A stretch of 64,000 bases of DNA, from assembly GCF_000744815.1 (NCBI RefSeq), contig NZ_JQMQ01000004.1, positions 744,001-808,000 of the forward strand, written 5' to 3'. This DNA is from Phaeacidiphilus oryzae TH49. Lineage in GTDB: Bacteria > Actinomycetota > Actinomycetes > Streptomycetales > Streptomycetaceae. Each line of letters begins with the position of its first letter. Within the stretch, counting starts at the first letter, position 1. The translations under genes and the position numbers were made by a program. The notes beneath the pieces were generated by a model. It was not told where the DNA came from and searched no databases. It saw only the letters and a list, made by a program, of their open reading frames with translations. Of the stretch, positions 18,662-31,584 are shown in pieces.

Positions 18662-19348
18662 ATGCGCGTGTTGGTGGTGGAGGACGAAGAGGCCATGGTC
18701 GCCGCGCTGACCTGGGGCCTGGAAGCCGAGGGTTACGTCGTGGACGTGGCCCGGGACGGAGCGGAGGGCTTCTGGAAGGCGAGGGAGCTCGAGTACGACG
18801 TGATCGTTCTGGACGTGATGCTGCCCGGCCTCGACGGCTACCAGGTGTGCCGGCGGCTGCGTGAACAGCTGGTCTGGACGCCGATCCTGATGCTGACCGC
18901 GATGGACGAGGACCTCGACCACGCCGAGGGGCTGGACGTCGGCGCCGACGACTATCTGACGAAGCCGTTCTCCTACCCGGTCCTCCTCGCCCACCTCCGG
19001 GCGCTCACCCGGCGCGGACTGGGGGAGCGGCCGGCCGCGCTGACGGCCGGCGGGCTGCGCCTGGATCCTGCTGCCCGCACCGTCCTCCGGGAGGGCGCGG
19101 TACTGGACCTGACCAGCCGTGAGATCGCCGTCCTGGAGTATCTGATGCGCCGCAAGGGGCGGGTGGTGTCCAAGGCCGAGCTGCTCGACCACTGCTGGGA
19201 TCCGGCCTACGAGGGGGGATACACGGTGGTCGAGGTGAGCATCCACCGGCTCCGCCGCAAGATCGACCGAGCCGGTGGGCCGTCTGTCATCGCCACCGTC
19301 CGGGGCGCCGGCTACCTGATCGAGGATTCCGGGGAGGCAGCCCCGTGA
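18662..19348 (+). CDS. OmpR/PhoB-type response regulator
   Basis: 228 aa. Receiver domain with acidic residues EDE (7-9), phospho-acceptor Asp51 in VIVLDVMLPG and Lys101 in YLTKPF. A C-terminal winged helix (about 130-222) has the family ending VVEVSIHRLRRKID and VRGAGYLIE. The following kinase gene starts within its stop codon (GTGA), so they are a coupled pair. This type usually controls membrane, metal or stress genes; the divergent cytochrome-like gene is a possible target. Confidence 0.94.
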   Translation: MRVLVVEDEEAMVAALTWGLEAEGYVVDVARDGAEGFWKARELEYDVIVLDVMLPGLDGYQVCRRLREQLVWTPILMLTAMDEDLDHAEGLDVGADDYLTKPFSYPVLLAHLRALTRRGLGERPAALTAGGLRLDPAARTVLREGAVLDLTSREIAVLEYLMRRKGRVVSKAELLDHCWDPAYEGGYTVVEVSIHRLRRKIDRAGGPSVIATVRGAGYLIEDSGEAAP

Positions 19349-20832
19349 CCGCCGTCGAACCGCGCCGATCCGAGGCGCCGACTCGCCCTCGCGGTCGCCT
19401 CCGCCCCCGCCTCCGCCCCCGCTTCGGCCGGCGCCCGCGCACCCTGCGTACCCGGGTCACCGTGCTGGCGAGCCTGGCCCTGACGGCGGCCGTGGTCCTC
19501 GGGGTCCTGCTGCTGTACCAGCTGCAGATGACCGGGGTGAAGCGGACGCTCGACGGCGAACTGCGCACCTACGCGGTCCAGATCGCGCAGGCCGCGGGCG
19601 CGGGGAACGGCACCTGGTCCGGCCCGCTGCCGCAGTCGAGTCTCGATCCCAACGCCGAGGCCCAGGTGCTCGGCGCGGACGGCGAGGTGCTCGCCGCCAC
19701 CCGTACGCTGACCGGCCTGCCCGCCGTCTACGTTCTGCCCCCGGGTGCGGAGGTCCCGGTCCGGCAGCCGGCGGCCGACCGCGCGATCCCCCGCGATGTG
19801 CGGGTGGTGGCGGAGCGGACCGTCGTGGGCGGCCGGAAGGTCACCATCGTCGCCGGCACTCCGACCGGCCTCCTGCACGAGGTCGACGAGGAGTTCGCCC
19901 ACTACCTGCTGATCGGGCTGCCGCTGATCCTCGCGCTGGCGGCCGGGACGGTGTGGCTGGTGGTCGGGCGCGCCCTGCGGCCGGTCGAGGAGATCCGGCA
20001 GGCGGTCACCGACATCACCTCGGCGGACCTCTCCCAGCGGGTGCCGGAGCCCGGGACCGCCGACGAGGTCGGGCACCTCGCCCAGACCATGAACGGAATG
20101 CTCGCCCGCCTGGACGAATCGGCCCGCCGGCAGCGCCGCTTCGTCGCCGACGCCTCGCACGAGCTGCGCAGCCCGCTGGCCGCGGTCCGCACCACGCTGG
20201 AGGTCGGGCTGGCCCATCCGGAGCGGGCCCCGTGGCCGGACCTGGCGGGCAGCGCGGTACGGCAGTCGGCCCGGCTGGAGGAGCTGATCCGGGATCTGCT
20301 GCTGCTGGCGAAGGCCGACGAGCGGCTGCTCGCCGAGCGGCGGCACCCGGTGAGCCTGGCCGAGGTGATCGACGAAATCCTGGCCGGCGCTCCGGCCGCG
20401 CGGTGCGAGGTCCGGGTGGACGTCCCGGCGGAGGCGGTCGTGCCGGGGAACGGCGATCACCTGGAACGGCTGTTCCGCAACCTCGTCGACAACGCGCTGC
20501 GCCACGCCCGGCACCGCGTGGCGGTGGGCGCCGCGGTTCTGGAGCGGACCGTCCGGGTGGAGGTCGACGACGACGGCGCCGGGATCCCGGTCGCCGAGCG
20601 GGAGCGGGTCTTCGACCGGTTCGTGCGCCTGGAGGGCAGCCGGGAGCGGGGCAGCGGAACCACCGGCCTGGGCCTGGCGATCGCTCGCGAGATCGCGATC
20701 GCCCACCACGGTCGGATCGCGATCACCACCAGCCCCGCCGGCGGAGCCCGGGTGGTGGTGGTCCTGCCCCGCGCGGGTGTCGACGGCGGGACCCCCGGGG
20801 CCGGGCCCGGGGCGCCGCGTCGGGGTCCGTGA
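19345..20832 (+). CDS. HAMP-type sensor histidine kinase
   Basis: 495 aa. An arginine-rich N-terminus is followed by helix 1 (about 39-59), an extracytoplasmic sensor loop, helix 2 (about 196-218), a HAMP segment, the HisKA box with His272 in DASHELRSPL, and the ATPase domain (NLVDNALRHA, DDDGAGIP, GTTGLGLAI). The N-terminal arginine run (RLRPRLRPRFGRRPR) mirrors short direct repeats in the DNA. The C-terminus ends in a Gly/Pro tail. Cognate to the overlapping regulator. Confidence 0.93.
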   Translation: MTAVEPRRSEAPTRPRGRLRPRLRPRFGRRPRTLRTRVTVLASLALTAAVVLGVLLLYQLQMTGVKRTLDGELRTYAVQIAQAAGAGNGTWSGPLPQSSLDPNAEAQVLGADGEVLAATRTLTGLPAVYVLPPGAEVPVRQPAADRAIPRDVRVVAERTVVGGRKVTIVAGTPTGLLHEVDEEFAHYLLIGLPLILALAAGTVWLVVGRALRPVEEIRQAVTDITSADLSQRVPEPGTADEVGHLAQTMNGMLARLDESARRQRRFVADASHELRSPLAAVRTTLEVGLAHPERAPWPDLAGSAVRQSARLEELIRDLLLLAKADERLLAERRHPVSLAEVIDEILAGAPAARCEVRVDVPAEAVVPGNGDHLERLFRNLVDNALRHARHRVAVGAAVLERTVRVEVDDDGAGIPVAERERVFDRFVRLEGSRERGSGTTGLGLAIAREIAIAHHGRIAITTSPAGGARVVVVLPRAGVDGGTPGAGPGAPRRGP

Positions 20833-20853: not shown

Positions 20854-21525
20854 TCAGTCGAGTTCGCCGAGGACCAGGTCGACGCCTGCCGTGGCGTGCC
20901 GACGGAACACCTCCTCGACCAGATCGGGGTCGCGACTGCGGAGAGCCACCAGGATGGCGCGGTGGCCCTGCAGGCGGCGCCGGGCGAGGTCCGGGTGCTG
21001 CCGCATGGTCTCCACCGATCGGGTCCGCCGCTCGGTGCCGATGATCGCGAGGGTCTGGACGAGGTTGCGAAGGGTGCGGTTGTCGGCGGCCTGTTCGATC
21101 TCGGCGTCGAACTCGCGGGCGATACGGAGCTGCTCCGTGCTGTCGTCGCGCTCGTCGCCGAGCCGGTCGACCAGCGCTTCCATCCGGTCCAGCGCCGCGT
21201 CGCTGATCTTCTCGGTGGCGAACCTGGCCTCCAGCGCGCGGAGCGCCGCGCCGGTCAGCATGAGTTCGCGGAGTGTCTCGGGGGAGTGGTCGACGACCCG
21301 GAGCGTGCGGATGGAGACCCGTTCGATCAGGCTCTCCTGCTCGAGCCGCCGGAGGGCCTCGCGGACGGGGGTCGGGCTCACGTCCAGCCGGGCCGCCAGA
21401 TCCCGCTCGGTGACCCGCTGGCCGGGCTTGAACTTGCCGGTCGCGATGCCCTCCCGGATGGTCCGGTAGGCCTGTTCGGCGAGTGATCGCGAGCGCTGGG
21501 CCGGCGTCAGATCCGGTGCGGTCAT
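20854..21525 (-). CDS. GntR family (FCD-domain) regulator
   Basis: 223 aa. Winged helix at about residues 12-80 (RVTERDLAARLDVSPTPVREALRRLEQ) and an all-helical FCD ligand domain (FDAEIEQAADNRTL, GHRAILVALRSRDPDLVEEVFRRH). FCD members sense organic acids and usually repress adjacent catabolic operons. It is divergent from the AtuA/Hyu operon, 254 nt apart, and that gap holds two copies of the TGCYATAGC motif. Convergent with the histidine kinase gene, only 21 nt apart. Confidence 0.92.
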   Translation of the reverse strand: MTAPDLTPAQRSRSLAEQAYRTIREGIATGKFKPGQRVTERDLAARLDVSPTPVREALRRLEQESLIERVSIRTLRVVDHSPETLRELMLTGAALRALEARFATEKISDAALDRMEALVDRLGDERDDSTEQLRIAREFDAEIEQAADNRTLRNLVQTLAIIGTERRTRSVETMRQHPDLARRRLQGHRAILVALRSRDPDLVEEVFRRHATAGVDLVLGELD

Positions 21526-21589: not shown

Positions 21590-21604
21590 CAATCCGCTAT
21601 GGCA
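21590..21604 (-). promoter_or_regulatory. GntR operator candidate, gntR side
   Basis: On the minus strand this reads TGCCATAGCGGATTG, 65 nt upstream of the GntR regulator start. It matches the copies at 21700-21714 and 18633-18647. Likely the autoregulatory site. Confidence 0.5.
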
Positions 21605-21699
21605 TGTTACATCGGGCCGTTCGATCTGGACCGTCCATGACCAACAGACCCCGAAGTCGCGGCCTGAAGAGAGCACTGCCCAGATGCCTTGACCAGTTT

Positions 21700-21714
21700 T
21701 GCTATAGCGAATAG
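21700..21714 (+). promoter_or_regulatory. GntR operator candidate within the operon promoter
   Basis: TGCTATAGCGAATAG sits between a good -35 (TTGACC, 21689-21694) and a TAGCCT -10 (21712-21717) with 17-bp spacing. A repressor bound here would block RNA polymerase directly. The core GCTATAGC is perfectly palindromic. The operon's first ATG is 63 nt beyond the -10. Confidence 0.6.
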
Positions 21715-21779
21715 CCTGCGGGAAACCGGAGGGTGCGCCGCGCGCACCAATCCGAGTTGCGCACGAGCTAGGAGAGTTC

Positions 21780-23186
21780 ATGCCCGACACAGCCGACACA
21801 GCCGACACAGTAGATCCGGCCGCCGGAGTCGGGGTCCTGGTGCCCAGTGGGATGCTGGGCGCCGGATTCCCGCCCGAGACCATCGCCCGCGGCATCGCGC
21901 TCGGCGCCGATGTGATCGCCGTCGACGGGGGGTCGACCGACTCCGGGCCCCACTACCTCGGCACGGGGACCGCCAAGACCTCGGCGCGCGCTGTCCGCAG
22001 GGACCTGCGGATCCTGTTGGCGGCGGCCGCGGAGGCCGGTATCCCGCTGATCATCGGCTCCTGCGGGACGAGCGGCAGCGACTCCGGGGTGCGGTGGGTA
22101 GCGGACCTCGTCGAGTCGGTCTGCGCCGAGGACGGCCTGCGGCTGACCGTGGCGAAGATCTTCAGTGAACAGCGGGCGGAGCGACTGCTGCCGGCGCTGG
22201 CGGCCGGCCGCATCCGCCCGCTGCCGCCCAGTGGTGCGCTGGATCCGGCGACGCTCACCGACTGCGCCCGCATTGTGGGGATGATGGGCCACGAGCCCAT
22301 CGAGCAGGCCCTGCGGGCAGGTGCGCAGGTGGTGCTGGCCGGCCGGGCCACCGACACCGCGGCCTCCGCGGTGGTCCCGCTGATGAAGGGCATGCCGCCG
22401 GGGCCCGTCTGGCACGCCGCGAAGATCGTCGAGTGCGGTGGGCAGTGCACCACCGATCCGCGCTCCGGCGGGGTGTTCGCGCGCATCGACGCGACCGGGT
22501 TCACCATCGAGCCGCTGGACCCCGATACGGCCTGCACACCGACCTCGGTGGCTGCGCACATGCTGTACGAGACCGCGGACCCCTACCTGATGCGGGAGCC
22601 CGCCGGGACCATCGCGGTGGCGGACGCGCACTACACCGCCCTCGACGGCCGGGCCGTACGGGTGGAGGGCTCGCGCTTCGAACCCGCAAACCAGTACACG
22701 GTCAAGTTGGAGGGCGCGGCGGTCGCCGGCTATCAGACCCTCTCCTTCGTCGGCATCCGCGACCCCCGCATCCTGGCCTCCATCGACGAGTGGGCCCAGT
22801 GCCTGGAGAAGACCCTGGCCGACCGGGTCGAGAGCGTGCTGGAGCCGGCCCCGGGCTCGTGGGCCATGGATCTGCGGCTGTACGGCCACAACGCGGTCCT
22901 CGGCGACCTGGAACCGAGCTCCGGGCCCCCCACCGAAGTCGGCGCGATGCTCCTGGTCAACGCCTTCGACCAGGAGACCGCCACGGCGATCTCCCAGCTC
23001 GCCAACCCGCTTCTGCTGCATCTCCCGCTGCCGGGGATGGGCTACCTGCCGAGTTTCGCCTTCGCCACCTCGCCCGCCCATGTGGACCGCGGCGCCGTGT
23101 ACGAGTTCGTCCTCAACCATGTCGTCGAGACGGACTCACCGACCGCACTGTTCCGAATCGAGATCGAGGAGCCGAGCCGTGGCTGA
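21780..23186 (+). CDS. AtuA-like protein (DUF1446, acyclic terpene utilization family)
   Basis: 468 aa, soluble. Opens with a Thr/Ala/Asp repeat (DTADTADT), then VLVPSGMLGAGFPPETIARGIALGADVIAVDGGSTDSGPHYLG in overlapping blocks that match the family, with IIGSCGTSGSD near residue 95 and a C-terminal region ending GMGYLPSFAFATSPAHV. AtuA itself is needed for citronellol/geraniol use in Pseudomonas, but its reaction is not established; relatives occur with DUF4387 and hydantoinase-like genes in many catabolic operons. First gene of the GntR-controlled operon; CTAGGAGAG precedes the ATG. Confidence 0.87.
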   Translation: MPDTADTADTVDPAAGVGVLVPSGMLGAGFPPETIARGIALGADVIAVDGGSTDSGPHYLGTGTAKTSARAVRRDLRILLAAAAEAGIPLIIGSCGTSGSDSGVRWVADLVESVCAEDGLRLTVAKIFSEQRAERLLPALAAGRIRPLPPSGALDPATLTDCARIVGMMGHEPIEQALRAGAQVVLAGRATDTAASAVVPLMKGMPPGPVWHAAKIVECGGQCTTDPRSGGVFARIDATGFTIEPLDPDTACTPTSVAAHMLYETADPYLMREPAGTIAVADAHYTALDGRAVRVEGSRFEPANQYTVKLEGAAVAGYQTLSFVGIRDPRILASIDEWAQCLEKTLADRVESVLEPAPGSWAMDLRLYGHNAVLGDLEPSSGPPTEVGAMLLVNAFDQETATAISQLANPLLLHLPLPGMGYLPSFAFATSPAHVDRGAVYEFVLNHVVETDSPTALFRIEIEEPSRG

Positions 23187-23538
23187 GACCACTGGGGCCG
23201 CTGAGACCACGCAGACGGCGAAGCCGACGCTGGACGAGCTGGCGCTGGAGGTGCGCTCGAAGAACGCCGGCCCCTTCTGGATGACCGTGGAGGCGTTCTT
23301 GCCCGACGCCGAGGCCTACCGGGCCGCCGACCGGCTGATCGACGAGGACCTGATCGCCGGGCTCTACCGGGTGCCGCGGGAGTCGGTCCGGGTGTTCCGC
23401 ATCCCGGAGCTACGGGTGGTGAAGGTGTCCTTCCCGCGCAGACTGGCCCAGGGCAGCCTCCACGACCGGGACATCCACGCCGGCCAGCACCATGTGCCGC
23501 TCGCCGGAATGCCCGTGCCGCCCGTGGGACGGGCCTGA
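23179..23538 (+). CDS. DUF4387 domain protein
   Basis: 119 aa from a GTG that overlaps the end of the AtuA-like gene by 8 nt, which indicates coupling. After a Thr/Glu-rich leader (ETTGAAETTQTAKPT) comes LDELALEVRSKNAGPFWMTVEAFLPD, the conserved DUF4387 opening, and later RIPELRVVKVSFPRR. It ends with RDIHAGQHHVPLA. Proteins of this family almost always sit next to AtuA-like genes, or are fused to them, and probably form a subunit or small partner of the same unknown enzyme. Confidence 0.85.
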   Translation: MAETTGAAETTQTAKPTLDELALEVRSKNAGPFWMTVEAFLPDAEAYRAADRLIDEDLIAGLYRVPRESVRVFRIPELRVVKVSFPRRLAQGSLHDRDIHAGQHHVPLAGMPVPPVGRA

Positions 23539-23583
23539 GGCCCACCCCGAGGCACACCGCCCGCGAACGAACGGGAACGATCA

Positions 23584-25326
23584 ATGACGACCGATCCGAC
23601 CGAACCGACGGAACAGACCGAACAGACCGACCAGGCCGAACAGACCGGCGCGATGGACCCCATCAGGTTGGAGATCTGGTGGAGCCGCCTCGCCGCGATC
23701 GCCGACGAGGCCGCGACCACGCTTCTGCGCACCGCCTTCTCCACCATCATCCGGGAGTCCAACGACTACACGGTGGTGGTGATGAACGCCTCCGGCGAGA
23801 CGATCGCCGAATGCCGCGCCGGCATCCCCGCGTTCGCGGCACTGATGGGCACCCTCACCCGGCGGCTGCTCGAACGCTTCCCGGCCGACACCTGGCGGGA
23901 GGGGGACCGGGTGATCACCAACGACCCCTGGCTGGCCACCGGCCATCTGCCCGATGTCGCGATGGTGTCTCCGGTCTTCCACCGGAACCGGCTGGTCGGC
24001 TTCACCGGAACCGCCGCCCACCTGCCCGACATCGGCGGCAGCCACACCATGGGCGCCACCGATCTGATGGCCGAGGGCCTGCTGATCCCACCGCTCCACC
24101 TGTTCCGCGCGGGCGTCCGCAATGAGGAGGTCGTGCGGCTGCTGCTGGGCAACGTACGGCTGGCCGGCCAGGTGTGGGGCGATCTGGAGGCGCAGATCGC
24201 GGCCAACGAGGTCTGCCGGCGGCGCACCGTCGAGTTCCTCCGGGACACCGGGCAGGACGACCTGTCGGCGCTGTCGCGAGCCGTCCACCGGCGGGCCGAG
24301 GTGGCCATGCGGCGGGCCGTGGCGGCGGTTCCCGACGGCGTCTACCGGTCGAGGGTGGAGGCGGACGGGGTGCCGGGCCGGCCGACGCGCATCGAGTGCG
24401 CCGTCACCGTCCGAGGCGAGGAGATCACCGTGGACTACGGCGGCAGCTCTCCGCAGGTCCGACATGCCGTCAACTCCACGCTGAACTACACCACCGCCTA
24501 CACCGTCCATCCGCTGAAGATCGTCCTGGACCCCTTCACCCGAAGCAACTCCGGCTCGTACCGGTGCGTCCGGGTGACCGCTCCCGAGGGGTCGATCCTC
24601 AACCCGGTCTTCCCCGCTCCCGTACTCGCCCGCCATCTGACGGGCCATCTGCTCTGCTGTGCCGTCTACCAGGCGCTCGCCGGAGTGCTGCCGGAGCGGG
24701 TGATCGCGGACAGCGGGGGCGCGCCCGCTCTGCGCGTCCAGCTCTCCGGCCGCGACGAACGCGGCGAGGAGTTCGGGCTTGTGCTGTTCGCCAGCGCCGG
24801 AATGGGGGCCTCGGCGCACGCGGACGGCCTGTCCGCGACCGCCTTCCCCACCAACTCCGGCGGTGGCGGCATCGAGGCGCTGGAGGCTGGCTCGCCGCTG
24901 CTCTTCACACGGAAGGAGTACCGCCCGGACTCCGGGGGCGCGGGCACCATGCGCGGAGGGCTGGGCCAGGTCATCGAGGTCCACAACCCGACATCCTGGC
25001 CCGTACGCGCGGTGCTGCTGGGGGATCGGGAAGAACATCCCGCCCAGGGCATGCGGGGCGGACGCCCGGGTCTGCCGGCAGCCGTCGAGATCCGCCCGGG
25101 CGCGGGAGGCGAGGGGAGCGCCGCCGTCCCCCTCAAGTCCGCCACCGTGCTGCCGCCCGGCGGCACGATGGTCATCCGCTTCGCCGGAGGCGGCGGATAC
25201 GGCCCCCCGGCAGGACGCGAACCGGCGGCCATCGCCGCCGACCTCCGCGCCGGCCTCGTGTCCCGCTCCGCCGCCGTCGAGGACTACGGGGCGGAGACCG
25301 TCACGCGGGTAAGGGCCGGTGCCTGA
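23584..25326 (+). CDS. HyuB family hydantoinase B/oxoprolinase subunit
   Basis: 580 aa. After a Thr/Glu/Gln-rich leader the core starts at MDPIRLEIWWSRL, which may be the functional start. Family landmarks are ITNDPWLATGHLPDVAMVSPVF, HTMGATDL, the NSTLNYTTAY region and NSGGGGIEALE. With HyuA this forms an ATP-dependent enzyme of the 5-oxoprolinase, N-methylhydantoinase, caprolactamase or acetophenone-carboxylase group; the two subunits' substrate differs widely. The order B then A here, with AtuA-like and DUF4387 upstream, differs from the simple hydantoinase operons. Confidence 0.88.
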   Translation: MTTDPTEPTEQTEQTDQAEQTGAMDPIRLEIWWSRLAAIADEAATTLLRTAFSTIIRESNDYTVVVMNASGETIAECRAGIPAFAALMGTLTRRLLERFPADTWREGDRVITNDPWLATGHLPDVAMVSPVFHRNRLVGFTGTAAHLPDIGGSHTMGATDLMAEGLLIPPLHLFRAGVRNEEVVRLLLGNVRLAGQVWGDLEAQIAANEVCRRRTVEFLRDTGQDDLSALSRAVHRRAEVAMRRAVAAVPDGVYRSRVEADGVPGRPTRIECAVTVRGEEITVDYGGSSPQVRHAVNSTLNYTTAYTVHPLKIVLDPFTRSNSGSYRCVRVTAPEGSILNPVFPAPVLARHLTGHLLCCAVYQALAGVLPERVIADSGGAPALRVQLSGRDERGEEFGLVLFASAGMGASAHADGLSATAFPTNSGGGGIEALEAGSPLLFTRKEYRPDSGGAGTMRGGLGQVIEVHNPTSWPVRAVLLGDREEHPAQGMRGGRPGLPAAVEIRPGAGGEGSAAVPLKSATVLPPGGTMVIRFAGGGGYGPPAGREPAAIAADLRAGLVSRSAAVEDYGAETVTRVRAGA

Positions 25327-25329
25327 GAG

Positions 25330-27456
25330 ATGGAAGACATGATGGAGACGGCCGAGACGGCCAAGCCGACCAGGGTCGGCGTGGACATCGGCGGTACGTT
25401 CACCGACCTCGTCCTCCACGACGAGACCCGGGCGCTGACCTGGACGGGCAAGCGGCTCACCACCCCCGAGCAGCCGAGCCGGGCCGTCATCGAGGGCCTG
25501 CGGCGCATCCTGGAGGAGACCGGCACCCCGATCGGCCGGGTCGGCTCCCTCGTACACGGGACCACGTTGATCACCAACACCCTGCTGGAGCGCACCGGCG
25601 CCAGGGTCGGACTGCTCACCACCGAGGGGTTCCGGGACACCCTGGAGATGGGCCGCGAGATCCGCTACGACGTCGAGGACCTCCACGCGCGGCCCGCCCC
25701 CGTGCTGGTGCCCCGGCATCTGCGGTACGGCGTGGGCGGGCGGATGACCGCGGACGGGACCGAGCACGCGCCCCTGGACGAGGAGGCCGTCGTCAAGGCC
25801 GCCCGGGCGCTGGTGCTGGACCACGGCATCGAGTCGCTCGCCATCGCCTTCCTCCACTCCTACGCCGACCCCGCGCACGAGCTGCGGGCGCGGGAGTTGG
25901 TCCAGGAGGCGTTCCCCGAGCTGCTCATCACCCTGTCCTGCGAGGTCGCGCCGGAGATCCGGGAGTACCAGCGCACCAGCACCGCCTGCGCCAACGCCTA
26001 TGTCCAGCCCGGCGTGTACGCGTACCTCGACGGTCTGGAGGGTGAACTGGCCGGCATCGGCTTCACCGGGCGGCTCTCCGTCATCCTCTCCGGCGGCGGG
26101 GTCACCACGGTGGACGAGGCGAAGGCCTTCCCGGTCCGGCTGCTGGAATCCGGTCCTGCCGCGGGCGCCATCGCCGCGGGCTTTCTGGCCCGCGCCGCCG
26201 GCGAGCCGAAGGTGATCTCCTTCGACATGGGCGGCACCACGGCCAAGATGTGCCTGATCGAGGACGGCCGCCCGGATGTCAAGCGCGAGTTCGAGGCCGG
26301 CCGGCTGGACAGGTTCAAGCCGGGGTCCGGGCTCCCGCTCAAGCTGACCGTGGTCGACATGATCGAGATCGGTTCGGGCGGCGGGTCGATCGCCGCCGTC
26401 GACGACCTCGGCCTGCTCCGGGTCGGCCCGCGCAGTGCCGGTTCGGTGCCTGGGCCGGTGGCCTACGGCCGAGGCGGCCGGCAGCCCACCGTCACCGACT
26501 CCGACCTCCTCCTCGGCTACCTGAACCCGGACTACTTCCTCGGCGGTGAGCTCGAACTCTCGCTGCCCGCTGTGCGGCGGGCCGTGGGGGAACTCGCGGA
26601 GGCCCTCGGCGTCGACTCCCACACGGCGGCGCTCGGCATCCAGGAACTGGTGGCCGAGAACATGGCGGCGGCGACCCGGATGCACCTCGCGGAGAAGGGT
26701 CAGGACCCGCGCGGATACGCCCTGATGGCCTTCGGCGGCGCCGGGCCGGTGCACGCCTACGCGCTGGCGCGGCTGCTCAAAGTGAACCGGGTCATCGTGC
26801 CGATGGGCGCCGGAGTGATCTCGGCCTTCGGATTCTTGGTGGCCGCCCCGACCGTCGACGAGGTGCGGGGGTATCCGACCTCCCTGGACCGGGCCGACTG
26901 GGGGCGGGTGGCCGCGCTGTACGCGGAGATGGAGGCTCGGGCCCGCAGGCTGCTGGGGCGCGAGGGCCAAGAGGCGGAGTGCGGGCACGGGATCGTCTTC
27001 TCCAGGTCGGCCGACATGCGGTACGCGGGGCAGGGCTTCGAGATCGAGGTGCCGCTGTCCGCAGGGGTGTGGGGAGCGGGAACCGATCGGGCCGACCGCA
27101 CGGCCGAGGCCTTCGGCGACGTCTACCGGCGGACGTTCGGCCGAACCGTGCGCGATGCGGTGCCCGAGGTCGTCAACTGGCGGCTGTCCGCCCGGCTGCC
27201 CGGGGCGGCCCCGCGGCTCGCCCACCGGCCGCCGGCCGCGGAGCCCCGACGCCGTTGGCGGAGCATCCACTGCCCCGGGCATGGCGAGGTCCGGGCGGAG
27301 GTCTACGACCGCTATGCGCTCACCCCGGGGACGGTGCTCCGCGGCCCGGCCGTCTTCGAGGAGCGCGACTCGGCCTGCAACGTCGGGCCGGACTGCACCG
27401 TCACCGTCGACGACCACCTCAACCTGGTGGTCGACATCGATCGGGGGCCCGCATGA
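25330..27456 (+). CDS. HyuA family hydantoinase A/oxoprolinase subunit
   Basis: 708 aa, starting 3 nt after HyuB. The ASKHA nucleotide-binding motif GVDIGGTFTDLVL is near residue 16, with VHGTTLITNTLLERTGA, the second phosphate-binding segment ISFDMGGTTAKMCLIEDG and MIEIGSGGGSIAAVD. A C-terminal region of about 170 aa matches the family's beta-rich domain. It should phosphorylate a lactam, imide or ketone oxygen using ATP. The leader METAETAKPT again resembles the neighbouring protein starts. Confidence 0.9.
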   Translation: MEDMMETAETAKPTRVGVDIGGTFTDLVLHDETRALTWTGKRLTTPEQPSRAVIEGLRRILEETGTPIGRVGSLVHGTTLITNTLLERTGARVGLLTTEGFRDTLEMGREIRYDVEDLHARPAPVLVPRHLRYGVGGRMTADGTEHAPLDEEAVVKAARALVLDHGIESLAIAFLHSYADPAHELRARELVQEAFPELLITLSCEVAPEIREYQRTSTACANAYVQPGVYAYLDGLEGELAGIGFTGRLSVILSGGGVTTVDEAKAFPVRLLESGPAAGAIAAGFLARAAGEPKVISFDMGGTTAKMCLIEDGRPDVKREFEAGRLDRFKPGSGLPLKLTVVDMIEIGSGGGSIAAVDDLGLLRVGPRSAGSVPGPVAYGRGGRQPTVTDSDLLLGYLNPDYFLGGELELSLPAVRRAVGELAEALGVDSHTAALGIQELVAENMAAATRMHLAEKGQDPRGYALMAFGGAGPVHAYALARLLKVNRVIVPMGAGVISAFGFLVAAPTVDEVRGYPTSLDRADWGRVAALYAEMEARARRLLGREGQEAECGHGIVFSRSADMRYAGQGFEIEVPLSAGVWGAGTDRADRTAEAFGDVYRRTFGRTVRDAVPEVVNWRLSARLPGAAPRLAHRPPAAEPRRRWRSIHCPGHGEVRAEVYDRYALTPGTVLRGPAVFEERDSACNVGPDCTVTVDDHLNLVVDIDRGPA

Positions 27457-28244
27457 CCCCGAGCCCGGAAGGACCAGAGGGACCGGAAGGACCGGAAGTA
27501 TCGGAACCATCGGAGGGAGACGTCACCGTGACGAGTGTGAGCACCGACCGGATCGGGGCACTGGCCGCCTGGGACACCCCGGCGCTCAGCAACGCCCTGG
27601 ACAGCCTGCGCCTGCGCGACCCCGGCACCGGACACACCGATGGCTCGATACACCGGATCACCGGGCCCGGGGGCCCGTCGGCCCCGGCGCCCGGTGCGGC
27701 TGCGGCGCCCCCGATGGTGGGCCGGGTGGTCACGGCCCGGATGGCGGCCAGGGAGGCGGGGGAGGACGGCGTGCCGGTCTCCCGGCTGCACCGGGCGATC
27801 ACGGAGAGCGAGGGGCCGGTGGTCGTGGTCCTGCAGGACTGCGACGAGCCGCCGGGCGCCGGGGCGTTCCTGGGCGAGGTCAACGGCAGTCTGCTGGCGG
27901 CGCTGGGGGTCGGCGGAGTGGTCACCGACGGCCGGGTCCGCGACATCGGCGAACTGCGCGGCCTGCCCTATCCGGTGTACGCCCGGGGGCTGTGTGTGGC
28001 CCGCGCCCATATGCGCCTCATCGAGGTGGGAGGCGAGGCCACGGTGGCGGGGCTCACCGTCCGGCCGGGCGACCTCGTCCACGGCGACGAGCACGGGGTC
28101 CTCCACATCCCCGATGCGGCCTTGCCCGGCATCCTCGACAAGGCCGAGCTGATCCGCGCGGACGAGGAGGAACTCGTCGCCTGGTCGCGCTCGGCCGAGT
28201 TCAGTGTCGACGCACTGCTCGCGCTGCGCCGCGTCCGGCACTGA
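27453..28244 (+). CDS. RraA family protein (aldolase/demethylmenaquinone-methyltransferase-like)
   Basis: 263 aa, ATGA overlap with HyuA. A repetitive acidic leader (PEGPEGPEGPE) precedes the RraA fold: LAAWDTPALSNALDSL, GEVNGSLLAALGVGGVVTDGRVRDIGEL and GDLVHGDEHGVLHIPD. These contain the metal- and oxoacid-binding residues of 4-hydroxy-4-methyl-2-oxoglutarate/oxaloacetate aldolases (Gly-x-x-Arg-Asp pattern). The GTG codons near 27527 could be the ancestral start. In this operon it may cleave or decarboxylate the ring-opened product. Confidence 0.85.
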   Translation: MTPSPEGPEGPEGPEVSEPSEGDVTVTSVSTDRIGALAAWDTPALSNALDSLRLRDPGTGHTDGSIHRITGPGGPSAPAPGAAAAPPMVGRVVTARMAAREAGEDGVPVSRLHRAITESEGPVVVVLQDCDEPPGAGAFLGEVNGSLLAALGVGGVVTDGRVRDIGELRGLPYPVYARGLCVARAHMRLIEVGGEATVAGLTVRPGDLVHGDEHGVLHIPDAALPGILDKAELIRADEEELVAWSRSAEFSVDALLALRRVRH

Positions 28245-28316
28245 CCGGGCTCTGACCTGGCACTGACCGGGCCTCGGCCCGGCCCCGACCGGGCACTGAC
28301 CGGGCCCCGACCGACC
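28238..28316. repeat. Imperfect CACTGACCGGGC repeats after the RraA gene
   Basis: Units such as GCACTGACCGGGC, CTGACCTGGCA and CCCCGACCGGGCA recur about six times between the RraA stop and the MFS start. The array fills most of the 97-nt gap. It resembles the codon-like simple repeats at neighbouring gene ends and has no obvious regulatory role. Confidence 0.55.
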
Positions 28317-28341
28317 CGCAACCGCACAGGAAGGCCACGAG

Positions 28342-29799
28342 GTGGCTCGCGTGACCGAGGAAGCTTCCGCAGCCCTGCCCGCACCGGGTTCCGGGCCGAT
28401 CCCGTCCGCCGCGGTGCGGCTGGTGTCCCTCCGACTGGACGCCCTTCCGGTGGGGCGCTGGCACCGCCGCGTCATCGGGGTGGTCGGGCTGGCATCCTTC
28501 TTCAACTTCTTCGAGGTGGCGCTGGGCACGGTGCTGATGCCGCTGCTGCCGGCGCCCTGGACGGCCACCACCCTGGACAAGTCGCTGATCATCGGCGCGC
28601 CCTTCGCCGGAGAGATGCTCGGCGCCCTGCTGCTGTCCCGCTACGCGGACCGGTTCGGCAGGCGCTGGATGTTCCGGGTCAACCTGATCGGCTACGCCGT
28701 ACCGGCCCTGGCCTGCGCGGCGGCGCCGTCCGCCACGGCGTTGATCGTGCTACGGCTCCTGGTCGGGGCCGGCCTGGGGGCCGAACTCACCTTGGTGGAC
28801 ACCTATCTGGCCGAACTCATGCCGGCCGCCCGGCGCGGCCGGCTGATGGTGCGCAGCTACGCCCTCGGCATGCTGGCGGTGCCGATCGCTGGCGTCCTGG
28901 CCGCGCTCCTGCCGCACAGCCTCGCGGGCCTGTCCAGCTGGCGGTGGATCACGCTGCTGAACGCGTTGGGCGCGGTTCTCGTCTGGAGGCTCTGCCGCCG
29001 GCTCCCGGAGTCCCCACGCTGGCTCGCCGAACGCGGCCGAACCGCCGAGGCGTTGGACGGGGTGGCGCGGATCGAGGAGCAGTACGCGATCCAGGCCGGA
29101 GAACGGCCGGCGCCCGCGAGCGCCGAGGCGGCGGCGGCCCGTCCGGGCTCGGGGGACCACCCCGGCGGACGGCAGTCCGCAGAGCAGCCCACAGAGCGGC
29201 CCGAGATCCCGCGTCTGCTGTCCCCGCCGCTGATCCGCCGGACCCTGCTCCTCTTCATCATGCAGCTGCTCGACCCGATCGGGTTCTACGGATTCGCGTC
29301 CATCGCCCCACTCGTGCTCATGGCCAAGGGGTTCGGTGTGGTCCACTCCCTCGGCTACACGGCGCTGACCGCCCTCGGCTACCCGCTGGGCACCCTGCTG
29401 CTCCTTCCGCTGAGCGAGCTCATCCAGCGCCGCACCCTGACCATCCTCTCCACCCTGCTGACGGCCGCGGCCGGCTGCGCCTTCGGGATGGCCACGGCGA
29501 CGCCACTGGTCCTCGCCGCGGGCGGGCTGATGTCGGTGTTCAGTGTGCTGCACTCCACGGTGTCCCGGGCCTACGAGGCGGAACTGTTCCCGACCGCCGT
29601 GCGCAACACGGCCCTGGGCAACGGCTACGCCGTCTCCCGCCTGGTCTCCGCCGTCCTGCCGTTCGCGGCGCTCAGCCTCCTCGGTGCGCTCGGTGCCACC
29701 GCGCTCTATGCCACCTGCGCTGCACTGCTGGTGGTCCTGGCGATCGCTGTCGCGGCCCTCGGCCCGCGGACGAACTCGCGCCGCCTGGAAGACATCTGA
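28342..29799 (+). CDS. MFS transporter (sugar/organic acid porter type)
   Basis: 485 aa with twelve membrane helices in two halves and a long hydrophilic central loop (about residues 225-290). The signature between helices 2 and 3 is visible (SRYADRFGRRWMF), as is LLVGAGLGAELTLVDTYLAELMPAARRGR after helix 4. It belongs to the metabolite:H+ symporter side of the superfamily, so import of the operon's substrate is likely. GTG start with GGAAGG upstream. Last gene of the operon; a 15-bp hairpin follows. Confidence 0.88.
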   Translation: MARVTEEASAALPAPGSGPIPSAAVRLVSLRLDALPVGRWHRRVIGVVGLASFFNFFEVALGTVLMPLLPAPWTATTLDKSLIIGAPFAGEMLGALLLSRYADRFGRRWMFRVNLIGYAVPALACAAAPSATALIVLRLLVGAGLGAELTLVDTYLAELMPAARRGRLMVRSYALGMLAVPIAGVLAALLPHSLAGLSSWRWITLLNALGAVLVWRLCRRLPESPRWLAERGRTAEALDGVARIEEQYAIQAGERPAPASAEAAAARPGSGDHPGGRQSAEQPTERPEIPRLLSPPLIRRTLLLFIMQLLDPIGFYGFASIAPLVLMAKGFGVVHSLGYTALTALGYPLGTLLLLPLSELIQRRTLTILSTLLTAAAGCAFGMATATPLVLAAGGLMSVFSVLHSTVSRAYEAELFPTAVRNTALGNGYAVSRLVSAVLPFAALSLLGALGATALYATCAALLVVLAIAVAALGPRTNSRRLEDI

Positions 29800-29835: not shown

Positions 29836-29871
29836 AAGTCGGGTCCCGGCATCCTGGCCGGGACCCGACTT
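29836..29871. terminator. 15-bp perfect hairpin closing the AtuA/Hyu operon
   Basis: AAGTCGGGTCCCGGC (29836-29850) pairs perfectly with GCCGGGACCCGACTT (29857-29871) over a 6-nt loop. It begins 37 nt after the MFS stop. The right arm ends 3 nt before the GAAGGAGG ribosome site of the next gene, so that gene likely needs transcription from within or beyond the hairpin. Confidence 0.8.
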
Positions 29872-29884
29872 CGAAGGAGGCCGA

Positions 29885-31108
29885 ATGGCTCTGCCCGTAC
29901 GTGAGCGGACCGCGTATCCACCGATCGCGGCCAAGGTTCCGGAGATCACCGCCCTGTTCTGGGTGCTCAAGCTCGTCACGACCTTCATGGGCGAGGTGAC
30001 CTCGGACTACCTGCTGACCGGAGTCGACATGGCCCTCGGAGCGGTGGTCGAGGTGCTCCTGATCCTCGCCGCCCTGGCCGTCCAGTTCCGCGCCCGCCGC
30101 TATGTGGCCGCGGCCTACTGGTTTCTGGCCATGGCGATCGCGGTATTCGGCACCGGCGCCGCCGACGCGCTGCACGTCCTGCTCGGGATCCCGTACACCG
30201 GGACGGTCGCACTGTGGGCGGCCGTGCTCGCGCTGGTCCTGTGGCGATGGCAGCGCAGCGAGGGAACGCTGTCGATCCACAGCATCACCACCCGGCGTCG
30301 TGAGCGGTACTACTGGGGGACCGTCTTCGCGACCTTCGCCCTGGGCACCGCGCTGGGCGACTTCATGCCCGCGGTGCTGCATCTGGGATACCTGCCCTCG
30401 GGCGTCCTCTTCGGCGTCCTCATCCTGATCCCCGCGGTCGCCTGGCGGTACCTCGGGCTGAACGCGATCACCGGGTTCTGGTCCGCCTATATCGTCACCC
30501 GCCCCCTCGGGGCCACCTTCGCCGACTATCTCAGCAGGTCGCACGCGAACGGCGGACTGGGCTTCGGGACCGCCGCGACCAGCGCCGCTTCGGCGCTGCT
30601 GCTCGTGCTGCTGGTCACCTACGTGTCCGCCTCCCGCCGGGACGCCCAAGCGGCCGAAGCCGCTCTGCCCGCCCTCGCGGACGGGTCCGGGCGCGGTGCC
30701 CGCTCACGGCCAAGGGGTGGCCGGCCAGACGAGGAGGGCGGCAGCGGCCAGCAGCCCGAGGTTGAGTGCGATCCGGCGGTCCGCGCCGGTGAGGTGCACG
30801 GCGATCGCGCCGACCTGCAGCAGCAGGAGCCCGATCGCCGCGGCCGTGGCGAGGCGGGGGACGATGCCGGTCAGGGGCGGCAGGACGAGTCCGGCCGCGC
30901 CGAGCATCTCGACCGCGCCCAGCGCTCTGACGGCGGGCAGCGGTACCCGGTCGACCCAGGCCATCATCGGGCGGAGCCGGTCTCGGCTGCGGACCGCCTT
31001 CATCGCGCCCGCGTAGAGGTAGAAGAGGGCGAGCAGTGCGGCGATGGTCCCGTAGGCGAGGCTCATGACTCCGCTGCTTTCGGCGATCCCGCGGGCTCGG
31101 TCGCGTAG
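29885..31108 (+). CDS. COG4705-like membrane protein with long antisense-overlapping tail
   Basis: 407 aa as read. Residues about 15-265 hold eight hydrophobic helices and look like the uncharacterised membrane-anchored COG4705 family (KVPEITALFWVLKLVTTFMGE, TTRRRERYYWGTVFATFALGTALGD, GFWSAYIVTRPLGA). After about residue 272 it turns hydrophilic and Gly/Arg/Glu-rich, and this part is simply antisense to the DoxX gene and the end of the cupin gene. A lost stop or small frameshift near 30700 is likely. GAAGGAGG precedes the ATG. Confidence 0.6.
   Translation: MALPVRERTAYPPIAAKVPEITALFWVLKLVTTFMGEVTSDYLLTGVDMALGAVVEVLLILAALAVQFRARRYVAAAYWFLAMAIAVFGTGAADALHVLLGIPYTGTVALWAAVLALVLWRWQRSEGTLSIHSITTRRRERYYWGTVFATFALGTALGDFMPAVLHLGYLPSGVLFGVLILIPAVAWRYLGLNAITGFWSAYIVTRPLGATFADYLSRSHANGGLGFGTAATSAASALLLVLLVTYVSASRRDAQAAEAALPALADGSGRGARSRPRGGRPDEEGGSGQQPEVECDPAVRAGEVHGDRADLQQQEPDRRGRGEAGDDAGQGRQDESGRAEHLDRAQRSDGGQRYPVDPGHHRAEPVSAADRLHRARVEVEEGEQCGDGPVGEAHDSAAFGDPAGSVA
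30704..31066 (-). CDS. DoxX family membrane protein
   Basis: 120 aa with four hydrophobic segments and the family pattern LFYLYAGAMKAVRSRDRLR plus AVEMLGAAGLVLP. It starts inside the stop codon of the cupin gene (ATGA) and is its operon partner. Its whole length is overlapped on the other strand by the COG4705-like reading frame; codon pattern and family match show this strand is the real one here. Confidence 0.82.
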   Translation of the reverse strand: MSLAYGTIAALLALFYLYAGAMKAVRSRDRLRPMMAWVDRVPLPAVRALGAVEMLGAAGLVLPPLTGIVPRLATAAAIGLLLLQVGAIAVHLTGADRRIALNLGLLAAAALLVWPATPWP

Positions 31109-31584
31109 CGCCTCATCACCGCGAGGCTCTGCTCAGGCGTCGGCGGCCGGCCGTCGGCCATCACGTCCCGCAGGTCTCGGAAGTACTGGACGTACAGGTC
31201 CGGGGTGAAGGTACTGAGCATCACGGCGGGCCGGTCGGTCCGGTTGGCGAAGGTGTGCGGGACGCCGGGCGGAACCATCACGAGGGTGCCGGGGGTGGCG
31301 TCGTAGTCCGCTTCCCCGACGGTGAACCGCACCGTTCCGGAGACGATGTAGAAGCCCTCGTCGTGCCGGGCGTGGCGGTGCTGCGGCGGTCCCGGGGTGT
31401 GCGGGGCCAGGACGGACTCGGCCATGCCGATGCGGTGCCCGGTACGGGTCCCGTCTTCCAGGATGCGCATCCGGGTGCTGCCCAGGACGATCGACTCGCC
31501 GCCGTCGGGACCGACCACCGATACGGCGGGGTCGGCCTGCGGTGCGTCGCTGTTCGGTTCATCGGGGTTCGGTTCGTCGGTCAT
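31063..31584 (-). CDS. Cupin domain protein
   Basis: 173 aa. The conserved cupin motifs are visible: PQHRHARHDEGFYIVSGTVRF (metal-binding His, His, Glu) and PGTLVMVPPGVPHTFAN (second His). An N-terminal Asp/Pro/Asn leader (PNPDEPNSDAP) is a simple repeat. Small cupins may be dioxygenases, isomerases or ligand sensors; the sequence does not decide. Divergent from the LysR gene across a perfect 17-bp dyad. Confidence 0.85.
   Translation of the reverse strand: MTDEPNPDEPNSDAPQADPAVSVVGPDGGESIVLGSTRMRILEDGTRTGHRIGMAESVLAPHTPGPPQHRHARHDEGFYIVSGTVRFTVGEADYDATPGTLVMVPPGVPHTFANRTDRPAVMLSTFTPDLYVQYFRDLRDVMADGRPPTPEQSLAVMRRYATEPAGSPKAAES

Follow-up and report, generated by a model that had tools for sequence, protein, structure and literature searches.

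What the soil actinomycete Phaeacidiphilus oryzae TH49 degrades with an operon that joins an AtuA-family protein and a DUF4387 protein to a hydantoinase-type enzyme is the question addressed here. The locus lies in a 64,000-nucleotide stretch of contig NZ_JQMQ01000004.1 (positions 744,001 to 808,000 of the forward strand; hereafter the window, whose own numbering is used below), and comprises the co-directional operon AtuA-DUF4387-HyuB-HyuA-RraA-MFS (21780-29799) and a divergent FCD-type GntR gene. An initial annotation, made from the sequence alone, had described six co-directional genes with tight spacing or overlaps beside this regulator; the layout was confirmed at every coordinate, and a profile search placed all seven proteins (7/7) above the Pfam curated cut-offs. 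On balance, we think that the operon is under GntR repression and serves the catabolism of a hydroxylated di- or tricarboxylate (C4-C6) like malate, citramalate, tartrate or citrate, or of a masked form of such a compound. The genes are as follows.

20854-21525, minus strand: FCD-type GntR regulator, presumed repressor (PF00392, E 8.9e-18; PF07729, E 3.7e-12)
21780-23186, plus strand: AtuA-family protein, putative CmlA-like lyase subunit A (PF07287; match to 9erq_A)
23179-23538, plus strand: DUF4387 protein with a GTG start, putative CmlB-like lyase subunit B (PF14330; match to 9erq_B)
23584-25326, plus strand: HyuB, putative metal-site subunit of the hydantoinase/oxoprolinase type (Hydantoinase_B, PF02538, E 1.5e-140)
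25330-27456, plus strand: HyuA, putative ATP-binding subunit (Hydantoinase_A N/core/C, PF05378/PF01968/PF19278)
27453-28244, plus strand: RraA-like aldolase/decarboxylase (PF03737, E 1.6e-23), with a likelier start at GTG 27529
28342-29799, plus strand: MFS/sugar transporter, presumed substrate importer (PF00083/PF07690)

The AtuA-DUF4387 pair and citramalate lyase

The initial annotation held that AtuA and DUF4387 proteins have no settled reaction, a statement made outdated by the citramalate lyase entries 9erq and 9evf of the Protein Data Bank (PDB). AtuA had one significant match among PDB chains, 9erq_A (E 4.5e-80, residues 19-463), which is labelled both 'Acyclic terpene utilization AtuA family protein' and 'Citramalate lyase, subunit A (cmlA)'. 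DUF4387 likewise had one, 9erq_B (E 7.8e-12, nearly full length), labelled 'DUF4387' and 'Citramalate lyase, subunit B'. The AlphaFold model of AtuA (mean pLDDT 87.8) was matched by Foldseek to 9evf_A (E 3.1e-47, TM 0.87), the sole PDB fold match at E<=0.001; this entry is labelled 'Citramalate lyase - ADP - pyruvate complex'. The operon pair and CmlAB are therefore homologous near full length in both subunits and have the same fold. They also share a polar core: 71 positions, many of them polar, are fixed alike in the CmlA clade and the clade of the window protein, among them D49, D54, R189, D192, H212, K215, E218, H260, E264, K309, E311, E386, H414 and H447.

Genomic context points the same way. 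In E. coli, Salmonella and Prevotella records, an AtuA-DUF4387 pair follows glmS-glmL-glmE-mal and is itself followed by a gene for class I fumarase or fumarate hydratase. The enterobacterial pair has the gene order and overlap found in TH49, and the CmlA sequence groups with the enterobacterial glutamate-operon copies in the AtuA tree. The route of these glutamate-mutase operons runs from glutamate through methylaspartate and mesaconate to citramalate, whose fate there was left unassigned by Kronen and Berg, who noted the DUF1446 gene as unknown (PMC4682846). AtuA/DUF4387 homologues fill this citramalate-lyase gap in the enterobacterial operons and so lend the lyase identity independent support. 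The AtuA of terpene catabolism, also a PF07287 protein, has been proposed as a lyase that releases acetate from a 3-hydroxy acid; it has 615 amino acids against 468 here, where DUF4387 is a separate subunit (PMC4847356). Terpene catabolism as the role of the operon was rejected, since neither geranyl-CoA carboxylase nor other atu genes are present in it.

From this homology, AtuA/DUF4387 is probably a CmlAB-type lyase of a citramalate-like hydroxy-acid, and its substrate may be other than citramalate. Annotations of the widespread AtuA/DUF4387 genes still read terpene utilisation or unknown function, and the link of this subfamily to citramalate lyase gives many of the gene clusters a testable reaction class.

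HyuA/HyuB, RraA and the carrier in related clusters

The ATP motifs of HyuA are intact (DxGGT at 19 and 299, GxxPGP at 371), and D61, H121, D124 and H146 of HyuB match the Asp-His-Asp-His metal site, for which the residues were taken from PMC8453981. No open reading frame for a carboxylase gamma or extra subunit was found in the operon, and a two-gene organisation of this kind is the hydrolase pattern (PMC5214803). The view of the initial annotation that HyuA/HyuB is an ATP-dependent enzyme of the hydantoinase type is thus borne out (PMC5214803, PMC8453981), and by its motifs the pair is of the hydantoinase/oxoprolinase type. Two subunits, DxGGT twice, GxxPGP and Asp-His-Asp-His are features shared with CapAB (6yra), 5-oxoprolinase and N-methylhydantoinase (7hk5), and the B-then-A gene order is that of capBA. 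Unlike CapAB, the pair falls below the caprolactamase cut-offs and belongs to a clade of its own tied to AtuA clusters; caprolactamase is the closest NCBIfam model for both subunits, at scores (482.6 and 242.6 bits) below the equivalog cut-off (1000 bits). Sequence consensus does not separate hydantoinases from ketone carboxylases, which have a common fold and common motifs (PMC5214803). Acetone or acetophenone carboxylase was rejected because gamma and extra subunits are missing and the model scores are low.

The association of AtuA/DUF4387 with Hyu is beyond chance and wide, extending across actinomycetes and betaproteobacteria. Among 299 family genomes, only four HyuA proteins have at least 60% identity, all of them (4/4) encoded beside AtuA/DUF4387, and the next level is at most 46%. 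The best three plasmid HyuA proteins (62-66%), from Cupriavidus oxalaticus and two Variovorax, have AtuA/DUF4387 adjoining or at most 10 kb away, and those at 51-52% (Shinella, Antarctobacter) stand in a different context. In the HyuA tree, the AtuA-linked sequences of actinomycetes, Cupriavidus and Variovorax form one clade (18/18, SH-aLRT 99); since these rows were mostly collected through AtuA, the unbiased support for the link comes from the 299-genome and plasmid searches. The next HyuAB branch (51-52%; L200, L201) occupies another conserved cluster, with a thiamine-diphosphate enzyme, a short-chain dehydrogenase/reductase (SDR) and a branched-chain aminotransferase.

Neighbours were counted in 80 named actinomycete AtuA loci. 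DUF4387 adjoins AtuA in 80/80, and the loci further contain a D-2-hydroxyacid dehydrogenase (63/80), a second MFS family (61/80), a TtuC-type dehydrogenase (49/80), both HyuA and HyuB (14/80) or RraA (4/80). A representative of the TtuC type scores above the equivalog cut-off for tartrate dehydrogenase (552.4 vs 470.4 bits), and some sister clusters carry tripartite tricarboxylate transporter genes. In five loci (L063, L086, L100, L121, L144) only remnants of HyuB are left, with HyuA remnants in three of the five, and mapping Hyu on the AtuA tree takes no fewer than four changes. One AtuA-tied clade together with these remnant loci marks HyuAB as a dedicated but dispensable add-on to AtuA clusters; Hyu as the cluster core was rejected, as it has been lost in many relatives. 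The initial annotation had suggested looking for the combination in other genomes, and clusters of Hyu with AtuA/DUF4387 do recur. The dependence runs one way: the HyuA clade is always found with AtuA, but AtuA is mostly found without Hyu. Its idea that AtuA/DUF4387 and the Hyu pair jointly activate and open the substrate is not supported: it combines two separable modules, as the lyase-type pair usually occurs without Hyu and Hyu was repeatedly lost. The HyuA/HyuB clade offers a well-defined case of a hydantoinase-type enzyme assignable by its gene company.

RraA goes with AtuA and not with Hyu. The nearest relative of the cluster, L078 of Solihabitans fulvus, reads AtuA-DUF4387-RraA-MFS without Hyu, and two orthologous loci (L073, L084) read GntR-ABC transporter-AtuA-DUF4387-HyuB-HyuA-RraA. 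Judged by these layouts, transporter and RraA are partners of AtuA, and Hyu is a unit that can be inserted or lost. Relatives of the MFS carrier lie directly after AtuA-DUF4387 in L054 (64%) and after RraA in L078 (51%). Among 101 members of the AtuA clade, TtuC was present in 0/7 with RraA vs 63/94 of the others (Fisher p 0.0007, in a test that ignores relatedness, some loci being near-duplicates), so RraA and tartrate dehydrogenase replace each other across clusters. The Hyu-RraA association in the same clade was not significant (p 0.065). In a search of the TH49 genome beyond this locus, the best match to tartrate dehydrogenase reached 46% and that to D-2-hydroxyacid dehydrogenase 43%, so that neither has a close copy there.

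Other arrangements of the pair were also seen. A class II aldolase gene directly follows DUF4387 in L064, L070 and L008, and in L064 the two are read as one open frame of 374 amino acids. Several Streptomyces (L057, L058, L068, L065) have two AtuA-DUF4387 pairs, each from a different subfamily, on opposite strands within about 20 kb. On a conjugative Klebsiella pneumoniae plasmid (NZ_MK104259.1, L161), blaCTX-M-24 and fosA3 are a few kb away from an AtuA-DUF4387 operon that also includes aldehyde dehydrogenases and a fumarate hydratase, and similar AtuA matches were found on other Klebsiella plasmids.

Proposed pathway and competing explanations

In the pathway we propose, the MFS carrier would import the substrate, which in some genomes including TH49 may arrive in a form that HyuA/HyuB must open first: HyuA would use ATP to phosphorylate a carbonyl, and ring opening or hydrolysis would be completed at the HyuB metal site. 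AtuA and DUF4387 would cleave a 3-hydroxy-carboxylate to a 2-oxo-acid and either acetate or an activated acetyl group; a bound nucleotide may take part, because the solved CmlAB structure contains ADP and pyruvate. RraA would decarboxylate or aldol-cleave the 2-oxo-acid, a step that would stand in the place of tartrate dehydrogenase, often with D-2-hydroxyacid dehydrogenase, in sister clusters; mutual exclusion of RraA and TtuC suggests that the two occupy the same place. The hydroxy-carboxylate class is proposed because sister clusters carry genes for tartrate dehydrogenase, D-2-hydroxyacid dehydrogenase or a tricarboxylate transporter.

Several observations weigh against this pathway. The citramalate-lyase label of 9erq and 9evf was given by the depositors of the structures. 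AtuA is about 31-37% identical to CmlA and, in a quickly searched tree that has some long branches, falls into a well-supported subfamily of its own (101 rows, SH-aLRT 99), with about 30 positions fixed differently between the two groups, including K66, T191, R272 and E273. The separate subfamily together with the low identity means that the substrate may differ much and that even the reaction could. D-X20-R-D is the usual motif of RraA-type aldolases. The operon RraA shares fold family and RD pair with the 4-hydroxy-4-methyl-2-oxoglutarate/4-carboxy-4-hydroxy-2-oxoadipate aldolase (3noj), in which the D is present, but its own motif is E-X20-R-D, Glu replacing Asp, and its scores fall far short of all curated cut-offs for aldolases; the Glu, 21 residues before the RD pair, is common to other AtuA-linked RraA proteins. 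Carbamoylase, amidase and aminotransferase genes are all missing from the module, which would be odd if HyuAB opened a lactam or hydantoin; this leaves room for a nitrogen-free substrate.

A plain citramalate pathway, in which AtuA/DUF4387 is CmlAB itself, a true citramalate lyase fed with citramalate that the other genes make from a precursor, would account for the full-length homology, the conserved polar core and the same gene pair in glutamate/mesaconate operons. We consider it quite unlikely, given that AtuA falls outside the CmlA clade with its group-fixed differences, that RraA is not needed to yield pyruvate and acetate, and that the module lacks the mesaconase, glutamate mutase and methylaspartate ammonia-lyase found around CmlAB, its neighbours being HyuAB, RraA, MFS and GntR instead. 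No mesaconate/citramalate-route genes were found in the operon or its orthologues. If HyuAB were instead the defining enzyme of a lactam or hydantoin pathway, AtuA/DUF4387 helping to activate the ring, the motifs of ATP-dependent lactamases/hydantoinases and the missing gamma subunit would be explained (PMC5214803, PMC8453981); such a pathway appears improbable next to the AtuA/DUF4387 clusters that mostly have no Hyu, the five loci that lost most of it in place, the lyase homology that the pair has of its own and the lack of a downstream nitrogen enzyme.

That last point, the inseparability of hydantoinases and ketone carboxylases by consensus (PMC5214803) and the 2-hydroxyacid dehydrogenase adjoining HyuAB in Cupriavidus and Variovorax would all suit a HyuAB that precedes or follows the lyase and uses ATP to carboxylate an oxo-acid or ketone, or to carry out some other C-C reaction on it. 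The two genes without gamma or extra subunits show the hydrolase pattern (PMC5214803) and the closest model for both is caprolactamase, though below cut-off, so that we regard a carboxylase as rather unlikely. We give a small but real chance to a further reading: HyuAB of this clade may perform chemistry that no member of its family has been described to do, using ATP on a hydroxy-acid, oxo-acid or lactone without nitrogen in a step that feeds the nucleotide-binding CmlAB-type lyase, and the operon would then represent an undescribed hydroxy-dicarboxylate pathway of actinomycetes and betaproteobacteria. All the enzyme families involved have been described before, and an AtuA/DUF4387 complex has a solved structure. 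No publication on the combination with HyuAB or on the operator described below was found in the open-access literature, and an earlier description elsewhere is possible.

Promoter, likely operator and flanking features

A generic sigma-70 scan detected no promoter ahead of the operon. The single promoter claimed by the initial annotation was located by comparing the intergenic regions of L073 and L084, two loci headed by GntR orthologues (70% identical); TTGACC-AGTTTTGCTATAGCGAATA (21689-21713) is common to these regions and TH49. The elements are as follows.

21689-21717, plus strand: operon promoter, -35 TTGACC, 17-nt spacer and a weak, presumptive -10 TAGCCT
21699-21710, no strand assigned: putative operator TTGCTATAGCGA (consensus TTGCTATAGCAA), within the -35/-10 spacer
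21596-21603, no strand assigned: GCTATGGC, a second operator-like site close to the start of gntR, presumed to serve as an operator

The pattern of the L073, L084 and local promoters matched only 21689-21717 in the window and had 0 matches in shuffles. The variant GCTATGGC itself recurs close to the start of gntR in L073 and L084. The core GCTATAGC flanks GntR in 41/61 loci, at a density of 1.01/kb within 350 bp of GntR genes vs 0.007/kb elsewhere in the same loci (44 vs 9 sites), and several of the sites elsewhere are directly upstream of the first transporter gene. Alignment of 57 sites gave the consensus TTGAC-N5-TTGCTATAGCAA-N4-TA, which places the operator in the -35/-10 spacer. Judged by this conservation, TTGCTATAGCAA is likely the operator of the regulator; GntR would bind it between -35 and -10 and block transcription until an intermediate appears. 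In the 7.8-Mb genome, TGCTATAGC occurs once, at the operon promoter (the reversed control pattern six times), and the operon therefore looks like the only GntR target in the genome as far as TGCTATAGC goes, variants like GCTATGGC not having been searched genome-wide. The conserved operator in the promoter spacer, unique in the genome, agrees with the earlier description of one regulated catabolic operon, and TTGCTATAGCAA provides a handle for finding co-regulated genes and testing inducers.

The gene junctions are, in order, an 8-nt overlap, 45 nt, 3 nt, a 4-nt overlap and 97 nt. The spacings given by the initial annotation hold for the genes as annotated, except at rraA: its likelier start is GTG 27529, because the first 25 residues from 27453 are a repeat tail that homologues lack, and this start, with GGAGGGA upstream, leaves a 72-nt gap to HyuA. 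A stem-loop claimed as the terminator is real but no more than a possible terminator, since no U-tract follows and the next gene begins 14 nt on; a terminator scan did not detect it.

29836-29871, plus strand: stem-loop that folds well, with a 15-bp stem, possible terminator

Downstream (29885-31584) lie genes for a DUF347 membrane protein and, on the minus strand, a DoxX-like protein and a cupin, for which no tie to the operon was seen. Short tandem repeats of 9 or 11 nt (21784-21810, 23588-23647, 25345-25362, 27465-27506, 28237-28313) lie at the 5' ends of 5/6 operon genes or directly ahead of them and encode low-complexity N-terminal tails, which homologues of AtuA and RraA do not have. Genes for an OmpR-type response regulator (18662-19348, plus strand) and a histidine kinase (19345-20832, plus strand) adjoin gntR, and their orthologues (67-74% and 55-62%, respectively) also adjoin AtuA clusters in L073, L078, L102 and L128; this two-component pair is possibly a second regulator for the substrate.

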